From Neoalteromonas facilis (GTDB taxonomy: Bacteria > Pseudomonadota > Gammaproteobacteria > Enterobacterales > Alteromonadaceae), in contig NZ_PEAY01000001.1 in the NCBI RefSeq assembly GCF_002807665.1, positions 434,001-498,000 of the forward strand: DNA of 64,000 nt, in the 5' to 3' direction. This document shows, piece by piece, positions 20-6,416 of the stretch. Both the position numbers and the translations under genes were made by a program. The notes under the pieces were generated by a model, which ran no database searches, had not been told where the DNA came from, and saw nothing but the letters and a program-made list of their open reading frames with translations. Numbering within the stretch: the stretch's first letter is position 1; each line of letters opens with the position of its first letter.

Positions 20-169
20 TTATCTATCCATGCATTTATTACGATTTGACGCACACCGCTTTGAACAATACTTAACATTGTCCCAATCACGCGCCCACTT
101 TTTGCGCCAGCGAAAAGGTCTTTCACACACTGCGCAAATTTTCTCGGGTAATTCAGACTTTTTCATCAT
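20..169 (-). CDS. DUF2256 small zinc-ribbon protein
   Basis: A 49-residue protein read on the minus strand, starting at one of two adjacent ATG codons (169 or 166) and ending with TAA at 20-22. It carries two cysteine pairs, C12-x2-C15 and C35-x3-C39, around a Trp/Arg/Lys-rich core (PFRWRKKW, then YCSKRC). This is the signature of the DUF2256 family, a probable zinc ribbon of unknown function. Its 5' end overlaps the last 17 bp of the upstream Fe-S photolyase gene, so the two are translationally coupled. From general knowledge, DUF2256 genes are often found beside this photolyase type. A role in photolyase maturation or nucleic-acid binding is inference only. Confidence 0.85.
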
Positions 170-1691
170 CCTCTAATCGACACAAAAACACGTCTGCGTC
201 GTCACGCATCATTGACACGTTGTTAGGGTCCATTTTGGACAGCGTACTGTAAATCATGCTCATCCGCCTATTGCTACCCAGGCGCTCTTGATTGCGTGCT
301 ACAAAATCCCAATACAAATAATTAAACGGACACGCTTGTGGCCCGGTTTTCTCTTTAACATTGTATGCACAGGACTGGCAGTAATTAGACATCTTGTGAA
401 TATAACTTCCGCTTGCTGCATAAGGTTTACTGGCGAGTTTTCCACTATCCGCATATAAAATCATGCTCGACACATTGGGCATTTCGACCCACTCATAGGC
501 GTCTGCGTAAACAATCAAGAACCACTCATTCACATATTTCGGGTCAATACCCGCTAACAATGCGAAGTTACCGATTACCATCAATCGCTGAATGTGATGA
601 GCATAGGCATTATCACGCGTTTCACTGATGCATTGATGCAAACAATTCATGTCAGTGTCAGCTGTCCAAAAGAACGAAGGTAGTTTTCTGTAGGCTTCAA
701 GCTGATTGCGGTCAGCCAGCTCCGGCATGAAGTGCCAATAGAATCCTCGAATGTATTCTCGCCATCCTATGACCTGACGCACGAACCCTTCCACACTATT
801 CAGTGGCGCCTGACCTGCGTAATAGGCCTGAATGGCAGCATCGACGACTTCATTAACGTTTAGCATGCCACAATTTAGGTAAAAACTAATGTGCGAATGA
901 AACATCCAAGGCTCACCTGACACCATCGCGTCTTGATAGCGTCCGAAATCGGGCAAGCGCTCAGCAATAAAGGCATTCAAGACATCTAATGCTTGGTCAC
1001 GCGTAACCGCAAATGCGAAATTATCAAGCGAACCGAAGTGATCAGAGAAGTGTTTCTCGACCAGTGTTAGCACTTCTGCCGTTACGCGGTCTGATTGATG
1101 TAACGTGCGCTTCGGAACTTGCATATGCTGCGGCATCGCTTCACGATTTTGATGGTCATAATTCCATTTTCCGCCAACAGGTTTACCCTGCTCCATCAGG
1201 TATCCTGTTCTTTTGCGAACTTCTCGATAGAAGTACTCCATACGCAGCTCTTTCCGACCCTCAGCCCAGTTTGCAAAAAAGGACTGTGGCATCAAAAAGC
1301 GATTGTCTTCTGTGATTTCGACACCTATATCCCAATCAGACTGCCATGTTTTCATGTCTTCAAGTAAGCGATACTCGGCGGGCTGCGCAACAATTACTTT
1401 ATTTAAGTTATAGCGCTCTAGCATCCACTTAGTTTGGTCTTTTAAACTGCCTTGATTCTCTGGATGCTCATAATCGATATAGGTAACACGCAGACCTTCT
1501 TCTTGAAGCGAAGCCGCAAAATGCCGCATTGCCGAAAACAAGAAGGCTATTTTCTGCTTATGATGCTTTACATAGCTTGCTTCAGATCGAACCTCGGCAA
1601 TTAAGACATGGTCGTTTGCGACGTCGACATTGTCCAAGCTGCTCATATCACGAGACAGCTGGTCACCCAAAATCAGTCTAAGTGCCCCCAT
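153..1691 (-). CDS. Fe-S (6-4) photolyase, PhrB/CryPro type
   Basis: A 512-residue cryptochrome/photolyase-related flavoprotein of the FeS-BCP class, which uses FAD, light and a 4Fe-4S cluster to reverse (6-4) photoproducts. The N-terminal Rossmann-like part (about 1-130) starts [10 protein letters not shown]. The C-terminal half holds the FAD-binding helices and four cysteines at C350, C438, C441 and C454. These are the same numbers as the cluster ligands of Agrobacterium PhrB as I remember them, and the paired histidines H365-H366 also match its active site. AGGATAA precedes the ATG. The gene lies 2 bp after the CPD photolyase gene in the same direction and overlaps the DUF2256 gene downstream, suggesting one repair operon. 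Confidence 0.93.
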
Positions 1692-1693
1692 AT

Positions 1694-3121
1694 TTATCCT
1701 GCTTTTACTACGTCATAGGCTTGTAGTGCTTTTTGCCGTGATGCCTTAAGATCAACGATGGGTTTCGGATAATCCTTACCCAGCACAATACCCGCTGCAC
1801 GTAAAACCTCACTGGGTGCTTCCCAGGGTTTATGAATGTATTTTGCAGGTAGCTTCGACAATTCTGGGCAGTAGGTTTTGACATACTCGCCATGTTTATC
1901 GAACTTTTCGCCTTGTAGCACAGGGTTGAATATTCTGAAATACGGCGCAGCATCAGCTCCAGAACCGGCAACCCACTGCCAGCTTGCAGAATTACTTGCT
2001 AAATCTGCATCGAGTAGACAGTCCCAAAACCAGCGCTCGCCTTTGCGCCAATCGACTAACAAATTCTTTACTAAAAACGAACCTACAACCATGCGTACTC
2101 GATTATGCATATAACCGGTTTGCCATAGTTCGCGCATGCCAGCATCAACAAAAGGAATACCGGTTAGCCCCTTTTGCCAAGCTTTTAGATCAGCATCATT
2201 GTTATTCCATGGGAAACGATTAAATTTGTCATTAAAGTTTTCTGTCGGAATACTAGGCCAGTGATACAGCAGGTAGTAACTAAACTCGCGCCAACCCAAT
2301 TCAGACAAATAAGTATCAATGTGTTCATTATCGGCTCCACCGAATTGATCGAGCAATGCATACCAAATCTGGTTGGGTGAAATTTCCCCAAAGCGCAAAT
2401 GCGTTGATAGTTTGGATGTACCAACAACTGATGGAATATCGCGGTCTGACTTATAGGATAACGCTGCGTTAGCGATAAACGACTGTAATTTCTCTGCGGC
2501 CCCTTTCTCGCCGGGTGTCCAATGGGCATAGAAAGCCTCATCCCATTTAATACTGGGTAATAGCGCTAAATCATCAATTGATGTGCTGCCTGCTGGTGAG
2601 CTTGCGTACCGCATGTTGTCAGGCCTTGAAGTTGGATAACGTGGCGCAGTCGCATTTAGGCAGCCTTTCCTGTAATAGGGTGTAAAGACTTTATATACAC
2701 CGCCATCTTGCTTGGTGATCTTCATCGGCTCCCACAACAAAGAACCATTAAAGCTATGAACTTCTATTCCCGTAGACTTAATTTCAGATTTAATAGTCTC
2801 ATCTCGGCTTCGTTGCCAGGGTTGATAGCAACGATTCCATACGACAGCCTTAGCGCCAGTCTCTTGGATCAAGGACAGTAAAATCTTCTGTGGATCGCCC
2901 ACATAGATATGAAGACGTTTATCTAAACTTTTATTCAATGCCACTAACGAATGATGTAACCACCATTGTGATGCTCCACCCAACTCCACTCTATCTGGAG
3001 TAACGTTATCAACAATATACACAGGAATGATGTGACCCTGCTCTACTGCCCAAATCAATGCAGGATTATCGTTAAGGCGAAGATCTTGGCGAAACCAGAC
3101 AATTGTTTTGCCTGCTGACAT
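1694..3121 (-). CDS. phrB: Class I CPD photolyase
   Basis: A 475-residue deoxyribodipyrimidine photolyase that splits cyclobutane pyrimidine dimers with blue light through reduced FAD. The N-terminal antenna domain opens with TIVWFRQDLRLNDNPAL. The C-terminal FAD domain contains WREFSYYLLYHWP, the segment MHNRVRMVVGSFLVKNLLVDWRKGERWF, and SNSASWQWVAGSGADAAPYF. The last segment keeps the Asn facing flavin N5 and the proximal Trp of the electron-transfer triad (N378 and W382 in E. coli numbering). Length agrees with E. coli PhrB (472 aa). AGGA lies 8 bases before the ATG. It is the first gene of the leftward half of the photolyase island and faces the Cry-DASH gene across a divergent promoter region. 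Confidence 0.96.
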   Translation of the reverse strand: MSAGKTIVWFRQDLRLNDNPALIWAVEQGHIIPVYIVDNVTPDRVELGGASQWWLHHSLVALNKSLDKRLHIYVGDPQKILLSLIQETGAKAVVWNRCYQPWQRSRDETIKSEIKSTGIEVHSFNGSLLWEPMKITKQDGGVYKVFTPYYRKGCLNATAPRYPTSRPDNMRYASSPAGSTSIDDLALLPSIKWDEAFYAHWTPGEKGAAEKLQSFIANAALSYKSDRDIPSVVGTSKLSTHLRFGEISPNQIWYALLDQFGGADNEHIDTYLSELGWREFSYYLLYHWPSIPTENFNDKFNRFPWNNNDADLKAWQKGLTGIPFVDAGMRELWQTGYMHNRVRMVVGSFLVKNLLVDWRKGERWFWDCLLDADLASNSASWQWVAGSGADAAPYFRIFNPVLQGEKFDKHGEYVKTYCPELSKLPAKYIHKPWEAPSEVLRAAGIVLGKDYPKPIVDLKASRQKALQAYDVVKAG

Positions 3122-3234
3122 GACGAGTCCTTGATTACATTAAAACATCTATTCTTACTTATTTTCCCGTCATTTCGATCCATTTAAACGGAATAAAACT
3201 ATTAATCTCGAACTGATTGACTACTAAGTATGCG

Positions 3235-4533
3235 ATGAACGACATTCAATCCAATGGTCTGTATATTTTTCGTCATGATCTGCGCTTAGACGATAACCCC
3301 TGTTTAGAATATGTCTCAGCGCAGTGTGAGGCGTTGTTATGTGTTTATGTGATTGAAGACTGCTGGTTTCAGCCGACCCATTATCAAAGCAAACGTATGG
3401 GCGAGCATCGTTACCGTTTTTTACTTGAGTCGCTGGACGACCTGCACCACTCACTACAAAAGCATGGGCATGAATTGCTGGTCATAAAGGGCGATTTCGA
3501 CAAATGTATTGGGTCTATGATAGACGCTGTAAAACCGCGCATCATCGGCATGGCTAAACACTGTGGTAGCTATGAACTAGAGCAACAGCAACGAATACAA
3601 CAACTCGTCGATAATCTTGGTATTGAATATTGTGACACCAATGCCGAATGCCTTTTTAGCGAGCAGCAATTACCGTTTGATTTGGAAGACATGCCAAATG
3701 TTTTCTCTCCATTTCGTAAAAAAATTGAAAAAGCTATTTCGCCTCTCCCGCCTAAAGCAGAATCTTTTGAACTCCCGCCTCAGATCCAAATCAATAGCGC
3801 TGTATTTGATTCAGTAAATACGAGCTTCGAACTAAAACAGATCCAGCAAAAGTCGTTCGATGCCCGCCTAAGAGGTGGCTCTGCAGCAGCTAAAAAACAA
3901 TTAAACTACTATCTTGTTCAATCTCATCATATTCAACAATACAAGCAAACGAGAAACGGCTTAGAGGGGTGGTCTTTTTCGTCTAAATTATCAGCGTGGT
4001 TAGCACTGGGATGCATAAGCGTAAGGCAGGTCTACGATGCTATAAAACGTTATGAAACGGAAGTTTGTGCTAACGACTCAACGTATTGGTTGTATTTCGA
4101 ATTGTTATGGCGCGATTTCTTCCACTGGCAGGCATACAAACATAACAAGCAACTGTTTACGTTTTCCGGAATACAACAACGCGAACCCCAAACCCAATTT
4201 GACCAAGAATCGTTTACCCGTTGGTGTCATGGTGAAACCCGTTATGAAATAGTTGATGCATGCATGCGCCAGTTAAATCAAACCGGCTTTATGTCCAATC
4301 GTGGTCGTCAGTTGGTGGCCAGCTGTTTTGTTCACGAATTAGGACTAGATTGGCGCTATGGCGCGGCTTATTTTGAACAACAATTGATTGACTATGATGT
4401 CGCGAGCAATTGGGGAAACTGGCAGTACTTAGCGGGTGTAGGTAGTGATCCAAGAGGCCACAGACAATTCAATCTAGCCAAACAAACCCAGCAATACGAT
4501 GAGGATGGCTCATTTCGCGCACGATGGCTATGA
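3235..4533 (+). CDS. Cryptochrome DASH
   Basis: A 432-residue (from ATG 3235) Cry-DASH type flavoprotein; members repair CPDs in single-stranded DNA and may act in light signalling. It opens with [16 protein letters not shown], has a [16 protein letters not shown] segment typical of DASH proteins, and the FAD-domain run [22 protein letters not shown] followed by RQFNLAKQ, which distinguishes DASH from CPD photolyases (RIFNP). An in-frame TTG at 3217 would add six residues. Neither start has a clear Shine-Dalgarno, so the start is uncertain. The last codons overlap the next photolyase-like gene (ATGA), indicating translational coupling. Confidence 0.93.
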
Positions 4534-6050
4534 CAGAACAGACAACTTCAACACTTCTTTGGTTTAAGCGTGATCTACGCTTGCGCGATCATCAAGCCTT
4601 GGCGTATGCCTGTTCAACGGCATCGCCGTGTCGACTGATTTATATTCTTGAGCCCAGCTTGATTGAAGATAATCATTATGACATTCGCCATTGGCGCTTT
4701 GTATTTGAATCCATCAATGATCTTAATCAGCAACTCGCTTCGTACGGCTCCTCTATTGAGGTTTATATCGGTGAAGCTATACCGGTATTGAATAGCATAA
4801 ACGCGATTTCTCCTATTAGTTCAATTGTAAGCCATGAAGAAATTGGTATAAGTAAAACGTTCGCGCGCGATCGTGCGGTAACACATTGGTGCGAGCAACA
4901 TAAAGTAAACTGGATTGAATTTCCTGACGCAGGCATTGTTCGAGGGCTGAACAATAGAATATCCTGGCTCGAAGGCTATCATGAATTTGTAAAAGCCCCC
5001 GTTGCAGATCCCGAGCTTACACAACTACAGACCATAAACACACCGCTTGATTTGCCCTACACACAATACGGCCACACCCGCGTGATAAATATCACTCAAA
5101 CCAACCAGACATCGTTTATGGACCGTGCTGATGTGCCCGCCCCTCATTTTCAGCCTGGGGGTGAGAAACGAGCATGGCAAGCACTAAAAGACTTTTTTAA
5201 AGGTCGAGGTCAGCATTACCAAAAACACATTTCTAAACCCGCTTTAGCTCGCATTGCATGTTCTCGATTATCCCCCTATCTCGCATGGGGGAATATCAGT
5301 AGCCGGCAGGTCCACCAATACACGATTGCACAACAACTATCGAGCGAATGGAAAGGGGTTAAACGGGCTTTTTTATCCCGAATACAATGGCGAAGTCATT
5401 TTATGCAAAAGTTCGAAAGTGAATGCCGCATGGAACATGAACCCGTGAATGGTGCATATATACATTACCCCTACGCATGTAGTGAACAACTTTTAAATGC
5501 GTGGGAAAGTGGAAAGACGGGACTTCCGCTGATAGATGCCTGCATGAGAGCAGTTGTAGCGACCGGCTATTTAAATTTTCGTATGCGGGCCATGGTTGTT
5601 AGCTTTCTAACCCATCACCTCAATATAGATTGGCGATCCGGCGTTCATTTTCTAGCGCGACAATTTCTCGATTTTGAACCTGGCATTCACTACCCACAAA
5701 TTCAAATGCAAGCTGGGGTAACGGGAACCAATACTATTCGCCTGTATAACCCGATAAAGCAATCGATTGAGCACGATCCTCATGGGGAGTTTATTCGTCG
5801 TTGGTTACCTGAATTATCTAACCTGCCACACCCTATTATTCATACGCCATGGCTGTTGTCCCCGATGGAACAAGCGATGTTCAATATCGAACTGAATAAA
5901 GATTACCCAACGCCCATTATCGACGTTGAAAAAGCGTCAAATCAAGCTCGCGAGCGACTGTGGGCTTACCGAGAACGCGATGATGTTAAACATGAGGCTG
6001 AAAGGATATTGTGGCGACACACTAATCCTGGCTCATTACAAGCGCGTTAA
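4530..6050 (+). CDS. Atypical photolyase/cryptochrome paralogue
   Basis: A 506-residue FAD-domain protein of the photolyase/cryptochrome superfamily, function unknown. It has the antenna-domain start [20 protein letters not shown] and the FAD-domain blocks [15 protein letters not shown] and [20 protein letters not shown]. The block that in CPD photolyases reads N-x3-WQW is replaced here by [23 protein letters not shown]. By eye alignment the flavin-facing Asn becomes His (about H387) and the proximal triad Trp becomes Ile (about I391), whereas the middle Trp (about W368) is kept. The ATG at 4530 overlaps the Cry-DASH stop by four bases; an in-frame ATG at 4524 would add two residues. It could be a photoreceptor or a repair enzyme with different electron transfer. 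Confidence 0.85.
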
Positions 6051-6416
6051 TTACGACGCTTTTTTCACTTCAGTTTGTGTAAGAACCGCTTTGCTGTCGA
6101 TTTTTGGCTCTTCGGATTTCGCCTCATGTGCATTGTTCGGTGCTTCAGGCTCATGGTCCTTTAGCCACTTAGTTAACAGCCCAATCTGACCACATTTATA
6201 TGCGGCATAGGTCAGTCGCAAAGCATTTGACAACACTTCACTGTCACTCCAATTGGTGACATTGCTAATTTCTTTATAACTATTCATTGCTTGCGGAGTG
6301 ATGTATCCACGTACCAGCTTTTTACCCTGAGCTTTTTGCCTTTCGCGAAAACGCTTTTGCTTGAGTGCATTAGCTGAGGGGGATTTTTTTGTTTTAACTT
6401 TTGCCGAACCACTCAT
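6051..6416 (-). CDS. Hypothetical ribbon-helix-helix-like protein
   Basis: A 121-residue protein I cannot assign to a named family. The N-terminus is very basic (about 1-35, Lys/Arg/Gln-rich). It is followed by a short strand-like segment KKLVRGYITPQAM and two predicted helices, NSYKEISNVTN and SDSEVLSNALRLTYAAYKCG. That order is the pattern of a ribbon-helix-helix DNA-binding domain. The C-terminal 45 residues are acidic and low-complexity. It is convergent with the atypical photolyase gene with no spacer: the two stop codons abut at 6050/6051, leaving no room for a terminator between them. A role as regulator of the photolyase genes is only a guess from position. Confidence 0.6.
   Translation of the reverse strand: MSGSAKVKTKKSPSANALKQKRFRERQKAQGKKLVRGYITPQAMNSYKEISNVTNWSDSEVLSNALRLTYAAYKCGQIGLLTKWLKDHEPEAPNNAHEAKSEEPKIDSKAVLTQTEVKKAS

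Follow-up and report, generated by a model that had tools for sequence, protein, structure and literature searches.

A conserved photolyase/cryptochrome block in Neoalteromonas facilis and its fourth paralogue, a predicted flavoprotein of a separate clade

We analysed a window of 64,000 nucleotides from Neoalteromonas facilis (bases 434001–498000 of contig C1, in a genome of 3.9 Mb). The start of the window (20–6416) is filled by four intact genes of the cryptochrome/photolyase family (CPF), a DUF2256 gene and a gene for a small basic protein, arranged in two divergent arms. Gene order, co-occurrence and regulatory motifs in related genomes support the block as a conserved light-repair module. 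We put at about 0.7 the probability that it is a photoreactivation island with a minus-strand arm under RpoE-ChrR control, and that its fourth CPF paralogue, here called P4, is a DNA-acting flavoprotein in the pathway of the (6-4) photolyase. The island would then hold the known cryptochrome/photolyase set of the cell.

Gene order and conservation of the block

A gene for a class III cyclobutane pyrimidine dimer (CPD) photolyase of the PhrA type (1694–3121, minus strand; 475 amino acids) leads the minus-strand arm. After a gap of 2 bp comes the gene for a 4Fe-4S (6-4) photolyase of the FeS-BCP/PhrB type (153–1691, minus strand; 512 amino acids), which overlaps at its 3' end by 17 bp with the gene for the small zinc-finger-like DUF2256 protein (20–169, minus strand; 49 amino acids, or 48 from the second ATG). 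Beyond the divergent intergenic region between the arms (3122–3234), the plus strand carries a Cry-DASH gene (3235–4533; 432 amino acids), with its start set at ATG 3235 instead of TTG 3217, and P4 (4524–6050; 508 amino acids, or 506 from ATG 4530). These two genes overlap by 10 bp, or by 4 bp if P4 starts at the second ATG, 4530. Intact genes that overlap or lie 2 bp apart agree with the sequence-only reading of this DNA, which had described four CPF paralogues side by side in two divergent, tightly spaced arms. A profile search of the genome returned three PF03441 matches and one PF04244 match, every one inside the block, and genome searches found no CPF genes outside it. In a genome of 3.9 Mb, chance does not place four CPF genes inside 6.4 kb, and their order is kept in other genera.

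We searched for P4 in a sample of 78 related genomes, N. facilis included. It is present in 29 (E ≤7.5e-87), with a clear break to the next match (only 1.2e-43). The P4 loci (17 kb in general, but 15 kb where one meets a contig end and 19 kb for N. facilis; numbered L below) were compared by tblastn with the window proteins. Near P4 in these 29 loci are DASH (21 loci), DUF2256 (21), FeS-BCP (20) and the class III gene (11). Nine loci (N. facilis, L026–L030, L034, L039 and L046) have the order DUF2256-FeS-BCP-class III / DASH-P4, with the small gene and fabA alongside, and a tenth (L031) has all four types within 7 kb in rearranged form. The genes are thus not usually scattered inside the subclade (9 of 78 with the same order, 1 rearranged). 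The earlier view that four types in one block are unusual holds in that the block is real, but the arrangement is less singular than supposed because relatives share it.

At the genome level, FeS-BCP is found in 29 of the 29 P4 relatives (40 of the 78 genomes overall, 11 of them without P4), and DUF2256 in 28 of the 29 (37 of 78 overall). Fisher's test gives p about 1e-12 for each of the two pairings, uncorrected for ancestry. Sixteen further P4 genomes picked for having no FeS-BCP at the fetched P4 locus all carry FeS-BCP elsewhere.

P4 is also widespread, with at least 590 confirmed matches among 84,980 species' genomes scanned. We kept the best 80 of these at least 590 loci, some of them incomplete, which include Gammaproteobacteria and Bacteroidota; at least three are genomes already among the 29. 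DUF2256 lies nearby in 44 of the 80, FeS-BCP in 43 and DASH in 32. Block genes are clustered in further genomes (L056, L061, L105 and L127). In two Flavobacteriaceae, and thus in another phylum, L100 (1020–7736) and L123 (1047–7760), the order SDR - CPD photolyase - DUF2256 - DASH - FeS-BCP - P4 - DUF2805 runs in one direction, with gene ends that mostly overlap or nearly touch. The DUF2805 gene matches TIGR03643 in L100, the one scanned. The CPD photolyase of L100, likewise the one of the pair that was scanned, scores about equally with class III (282 bits) and class I (277 bits) structures.

Could the block be simply an inherited gene order, its clustering and co-occurrence without functional meaning? 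The nine full blocks occupy one address beside fabA-rmf in one family and may descend from a single event. However, the order is retained while amino-acid identity to the window drops to about 45–65% between genera. Furthermore, these genes are arranged differently in other genera, in other families and in Bacteroidota, and the 16 genomes with FeS-BCP away from P4 also argue against mere inheritance of a neighbourhood. We therefore regard this explanation as improbable.

Several observations nonetheless weigh against a light-repair module. Four of the 29 loci (L033, L037, L047 and L053) have no partner near P4, and four Vibrionaceae genomes have DASH next to FeS-BCP but P4 in a separate place. 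The co-occurrence and synteny counts are uncorrected for ancestry, and the check for FeS-BCP covered genomes other than those of Deinococcus and the other plasmid-borne cases of P4. FeS-BCP itself is in 86 plasmid records; Deinococcus is not among the ten genera listed, with 24 more beyond the list, so these records have no bearing on Deinococcus.

A precedent for joint expression comes from Synechococcus PCC 7335, where different photolyase classes are co-transcribed in a UV-B-induced operon (PMC9649867). That operon differs in having only two genes, one encoding a photolyase and the other a bifunctional enzyme whose clade lies beside class II (PMC9649867). We found no publication on a photolyase/cryptochrome operon in Alteromonas.

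Three classical enzymes and a separate P4 clade

The sequence-only reading had called the CPD photolyase (1694–3121) class I. Among solved structures the protein is closest to Agrobacterium PhrA (4u63; 516 bits over nearly the full length), against 305 bits for the E. coli photolyase (1dnp). Furthermore, in a 72-row tree the protein and ten homologues form their own branch (100%; 4u63 itself is absent), and the four class I rows form a separate branch (99%) without it. The enzyme is thus class III, not class I. For residue comparisons we used the numbering of E. coli photolyase, with letters checked; the positions of the tryptophan (Trp) triad follow PMC13274461, and lesion positions 1 and 2 follow Table 1 of PMC7560933. 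Equivalents of W382/W359/W306, E274, N341, M345 and W384 are retained in 11 of 11 class III rows. The likeness to A. tumefaciens PhrA, also class III, extends from the score to the Trp triad and the CPD-contact residues, with no notable difference.

The other two classical enzymes and DUF2256 are as first proposed, family models and best solved relatives being in agreement. The 153–1691 protein matches PF04244 (DPRP; 273.9 bits) and, over residues 2–507, A. fabrum PhrB (4dja; 588 bits). All 13 aligned rows share its cysteines C350, C438, C441 and C454, which we take to be the ligands of the 4Fe-4S cluster. By sequence it is an FeS-BCP (6-4) photolyase, with predicted repair of (6-4) photoproducts and a predicted lumazine antenna. 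Full-length similarity and the four cysteines are shared with A. fabrum PhrB and R. sphaeroides CryB; the window gene differs in adjoining a class III enzyme and DUF2256. The DUF2256 protein matches PF10013 (77.4 bits, cut-off 25). On these identities, the minus-strand arm would supply DUF2256 and two photolyases, one of class III for CPDs and one of the 4Fe-4S (6-4) type.

The Cry-DASH protein scores above the cut-off of the NCBIfam DASH model (TIGR02765; 528.5 bits, cut-off 317.05), and its best solved relative is 1np7 of Synechocystis. Lesion position 1 is Q and position 2 is Y, a pair found in 25 of 25 DASH rows. In model score and in these positions it is like 1np7 and VcCry1 of Vibrio cholerae. 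The window protein ends at RARWL, which corresponds to residue 432 of the 489-residue 1np7, and several P4-adjacent relatives end there too.

P4 is a member of the cryptochrome/photolyase superfamily by both of its domains (PF03441, 221.9 bits; PF00875, 73.1 bits), its fold and its residues for contact with flavin adenine dinucleotide (FAD). Its AlphaFold2 model, made from a 28-row alignment, has the photolyase fold (pLDDT 90.5). The top Foldseek matches of the model are class III, DASH, (6-4) and plant types, with 18–26% identity among the 50 matches listed. P4 scores below the cut-offs of all five NCBIfam photolyase/cryptochrome models that it matches. In the 72-row tree, 32 P4 rows stand on one side of a branch with SH-aLRT support of 100% and a length of 2.0. 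P4 rows also group together (100/100) in a 41-row tree with Bacteroidota and Deinococcus added, which carries a long-branch warning and leaves the position of P4 relative to DASH unsure. Both trees cover CPF types other than the (6-4)/animal and plant types.

The residues expected to bind FAD and those expected to touch a lesion have diverged differently in P4. The FAD-site residues Y222, S238, R344 and D372 are kept in 32 of 32 P4 rows, as is W277. This conservation suggests that P4 likely binds FAD. The lesion pocket is another matter: E274 is replaced by R, N341 by F and W384 by M in all 32 rows, M345 by A or S in all 32, and N378 by H in 31. Window P4 has A/M at lesion positions 1/2, and the pairs M/W (CPD) or H/W (6-4) occur in none of the 32 rows. 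The electron-transfer path is changed too: W382 is lost in 32 of 32 rows; W359 is kept in all, and the W306 position holds Y in 16 rows and W in one, so that none of the 32 has the complete triad W382-W359-W306. The loss of the lesion-contact residues and of W382 makes canonical CPD, (6-4) or DASH chemistry unlikely in P4. On clade and residues together, we reject it as a canonical photolyase. P4 would be a probable FAD binder of a separate clade, with a rebuilt lesion pocket and a rebuilt electron-transfer path.

Eight phage records came up as possible P4 carriers, with 26–28% identity among the five listed; these are probably other CPF members. In one congener (L026:9158–10264), P4 stops in frame after 368 amino acids and similarity continues to 10678, which indicates a pseudogene or a sequencing error.

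Possible functions of P4

The altered pocket, the partner gene and a gene fusion in Deinococcus together suggest a repair role for P4. All seven P4 matches on Deinococcus plasmids are annotated as uracil-DNA glycosylase (UDG). We opened four of them (L165:4989–7262, L166:3989–6271, L167:3956–6238 and L164:5622–7256) and found P4-UDG fusions with the UDG part C-terminal. Three are single open reading frames of 757–760 amino acids, and the annotation of the fourth is shorter. PF03441 and UDG domains are recognised by Pfam in each of the four and PF00875 in the three long proteins, and the ung model (TIGR00628) scores 262–268 bits (cut-off 185.75) in the three scanned with NCBIfam. The P4 signature residues are invariant in a nine-row alignment that includes three fusions. 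In the Deinococcus literature examined we found no mention of a photolyase-UDG fusion, which is not proof that such a fusion is unreported.

Some P4 proteins end in sequences of the QLSLF, QLDLF or QMRLF type (L050, L051, L052, L053 and L168), with looser versions in the Deinococcus linkers and in L163. This type of end resembles the consensus of the binding motif for the sliding clamp (beta-clamp). It is found in 5 of 119 P4 C-termini and in none of 60 FeS-BCP, 23 PhrA-like and 54 DASH C-termini. One sub-branch of the 41-row tree (98/98) unites the four opened fusions with L163 and all five proteins that carry QLSLF-like ends. A clamp-like C-terminus is therefore not a feature of the P4 family: it is limited to one sub-branch and absent from window P4. 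That the fusions sit in a sub-branch without window P4 counts against our reading of the N. facilis protein, and action on DNA is thus assigned to it by family.

P4 most likely acts on DNA, as a repair enzyme or an accessory flavoprotein for damage outside the reach of the three classical types, and it would do so in the same pathway as the (6-4) photolyase. In one specific version, which we consider less likely than not, sunlit bacteria would have in P4 a new flavoenzyme of DNA repair whose substrate is none of CPDs, (6-4) photoproducts and CPDs in single-stranded DNA (ssDNA). Candidate substrates are Dewar isomers, which P4 might turn back before FeS-BCP could act, and photoproducts that contain uracil after deamination, whose uracil would still have to be removed. 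A non-classical substrate of this kind, if true, would explain the company of FeS-BCP in every genome checked, the rebuilt pocket and the Deinococcus UDG fusion.

An alternative that we likewise consider less likely than not makes P4 a cryptochrome: it would sense light or regulate, would repair nothing, and would cluster with repair genes as their controller or timer. Replacement of the canonical lesion-contact residues is consistent with such a role. So is the blue-light induction of VC1392 (also Cry2 or VcCry2), the probable V. cholerae counterpart, whose function is given as unknown in PMC4019646. The link between VC1392 and P4 is made by elimination. According to PMC4019646, Photobacterium SKA34 has orthologues of VCA0057, VC1814 and VC1392, and we found that its three PF03441 genes are one class I, one DASH and one P4. 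VC1392 therefore probably belongs to the P4 family, by elimination only; the V. cholerae cry1 primer gave no match in 227 Vibrio genomes. Against a sensor, Pfam identifies the two photolyase domains alone in P4 and no signalling domain, and the UDG fusion of Deinococcus and the clamp-like tails of sister members point to work on DNA.

The V. cholerae experiments cut both ways. All three CPF genes (operons) are induced by blue light there (PMC5241685, PMC11976125). A triple CPF knockout left blue-light regulation unchanged (PMC5241685, PMC11976125), which speaks against a regulatory cryptochrome. The same result, and the finding that a cry2 (VC1392) mutant is not sensitive to blue light (PMC11976125, PMC5241685), also count against a light-repair role for P4.

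Could P4 instead be an ssDNA-specific CPD photolyase, a second Cry-DASH? VC1392 is called a CRY-DASH or ssDNA photolyase in PMC5241685 and PMC11976125, and the best profile match of P4 among solved structures is the Cry-DASH 1np7 (246.8 bits), the top two matches (1np7 and 6kii) both being of DASH type. Moreover, a 574-protein tree (PMC9178010) has a 'DASH-like' group apart from DASH, class I and class III. P4 is likewise a CPF group outside these three with DASH-type best solved relatives, and the two may be the same clade. However, the DASH clade is separate from P4 in both trees (DASH 99% and P4 100% in the 72-row tree; 100/99 and 100/100 in the 41-row tree). Furthermore, the E274/N341/Q345/Y384 pattern of 25 of 25 DASH rows is in none of the 32 P4 rows, and P4 reaches only 179.3 bits with the DASH model (cut-off 317.05). 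The identity of VC1392 with P4 is itself only inferred. We thus reject P4 as a Cry-DASH in the usual sense and consider an ssDNA photolyase activity unlikely. If the elimination is right, the DASH/ssDNA-photolyase label of Cry2 does not fit the P4 clade.

Should P4 have a non-classical substrate, the published descriptions of VcCry2 as a cryptochrome or an ssDNA photolyase would be misassignments. Should P4 be the 'DASH-like' group, the clade itself would already be known. Cryptochromes without an assigned role have long been a loose end in bacteria. For this fourth paralogue, the conserved block, the pairing with FeS-BCP, the invariant residue changes and the Deinococcus fusion narrow the question to a short list of lesions and a partner enzyme open to direct assay. 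The P4 clade is common but hidden by misleading annotations: the plasmid records seen call it deoxyribodipyrimidine photo-lyase, FAD-binding domain protein or uracil-DNA glycosylase. P4-DUF2256 pairs also lie on large plasmids of Salinivibrio kushneri (L162:5986–7675; typed as mobilizable) and Tritonibacter mobilis (L163:5995–7648).

Proposed RpoE-ChrR regulation and neighbouring genes

The N. facilis genome has chrR (168 bits, cut-off 124.5). Directly before it is a frame like an extracytoplasmic function (ECF) sigma factor, a putative rpoE named by position and sequence. The frame is preceded at -56 by TGATC-N17-CGTAT, which fits the sigmaE promoter motif TGATC-N16-18-CGTAW (PMC5241685). The motif is found with at most one mismatch at -56 to -64 in the rpoE upstream regions of seven of nine genomes. 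The pairing of chrR and a sigma factor with this motif is shared with the RpoE-ChrR regulon of V. cholerae (PMC5241685); the CPF operons are blue-light induced there, and the window differs in the degenerate site of its photolyase arm. By this reading, singlet oxygen or other reactive oxygen species (ROS) generated by light would inactivate ChrR, and RpoE would most likely turn on at least the minus-strand arm.

To look for the promoter in relatives we scanned 130 bp before 45 block-leading genes at a spacing of 16 or 17, with start codons set by homology. A site with at most one mismatch precedes 13 of the 45 leaders. Over 300 shuffles the mean was 0.60 and the maximum 4, and among 245 other genes 3 have such a site. 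At most two mismatches are found before 28 of 45 leaders (shuffle mean 6.85, maximum 14) and 40 of 245 other genes. In the window itself, GGATC-N17-AGTAA (3155–3181, minus strand), at -60 of the class III gene, is a candidate promoter of RpoE(sigmaE) type for the minus-strand arm. Congeners have similar sites with two mismatches (L026) or three (L029); a third, in L027, was read off the sequence, the scan having chosen another site with two mismatches.

RpoE control has its own points against it. The window site has two mismatches and is degenerate, and a best match of two mismatches is also found in 14% of shuffled regions, so that the site is weak alone. The window has no exact sigmaE promoter, and every site before the DASH-P4 arm has at least three mismatches. 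Seventeen of the 45 leaders have three or more mismatches, and two of the nine rpoE upstream regions are without the motif. The spacing was narrowed to 16/17 after the rpoE promoters and earlier matches had been inspected, and four of the leaders are hand-picked additions, without which the count is 11 of 41. The sequence-only proposal of shared light regulation is thus upheld in part: chrR and rpoE are present and the motif is enriched before the leaders of relatives, but the window site is degenerate and the plus-strand arm has no comparable one. We infer co-expression in N. facilis on these grounds.

Regulators of the LitR/CarH type, which sense B12, and LexA control light or UV genes in other bacteria, and either might act here instead of RpoE-ChrR. 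The sequence-only reading had proposed a look for a LitR/CarH or ECF sigma site in the intergenic region. The single B12-binding match of the genome sits in an 878-amino-acid frame, however, and is no candidate regulator. The window has 25 LexA-like matches, about as many as chance predicts (22.0 expected), and 3122–3234 contains none of them. Control by either regulator is thus very unlikely.

The small basic protein beside fabA (6051–6416, minus strand) abuts P4 tail to tail. The gene had been taken for the end of the module and labelled ribbon-helix-helix-like, a label without library support: its best Pfam match is TetR_C_8 (15.2 bits, cut-off 26.1) and its NCBIfam match is UrfF (20.1 bits, cut-off 100), so that no Pfam family scores above cut-off. 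It is found in 40 of the 78 relatives, 20 of them without P4, and is therefore a neighbour and not a member of the module. Its family-wide occurrence, also without P4, likewise argues against it as a regulator of the module. Beyond P4 the order is the small gene, fabA, rmf and a DUF3466 gene.

Upstream of DUF2256, before the start of the window, lie a YjdM-like (zinc-ribbon) gene and a gene for a GntR regulator, then genes of the PrpF, aconitase, citrate synthase and phosphoenolpyruvate (PEP) mutase/isocitrate lyase (ICL) families (L004:4989–11956). The latter four are presumably of the 2-methylcitrate-cycle type.

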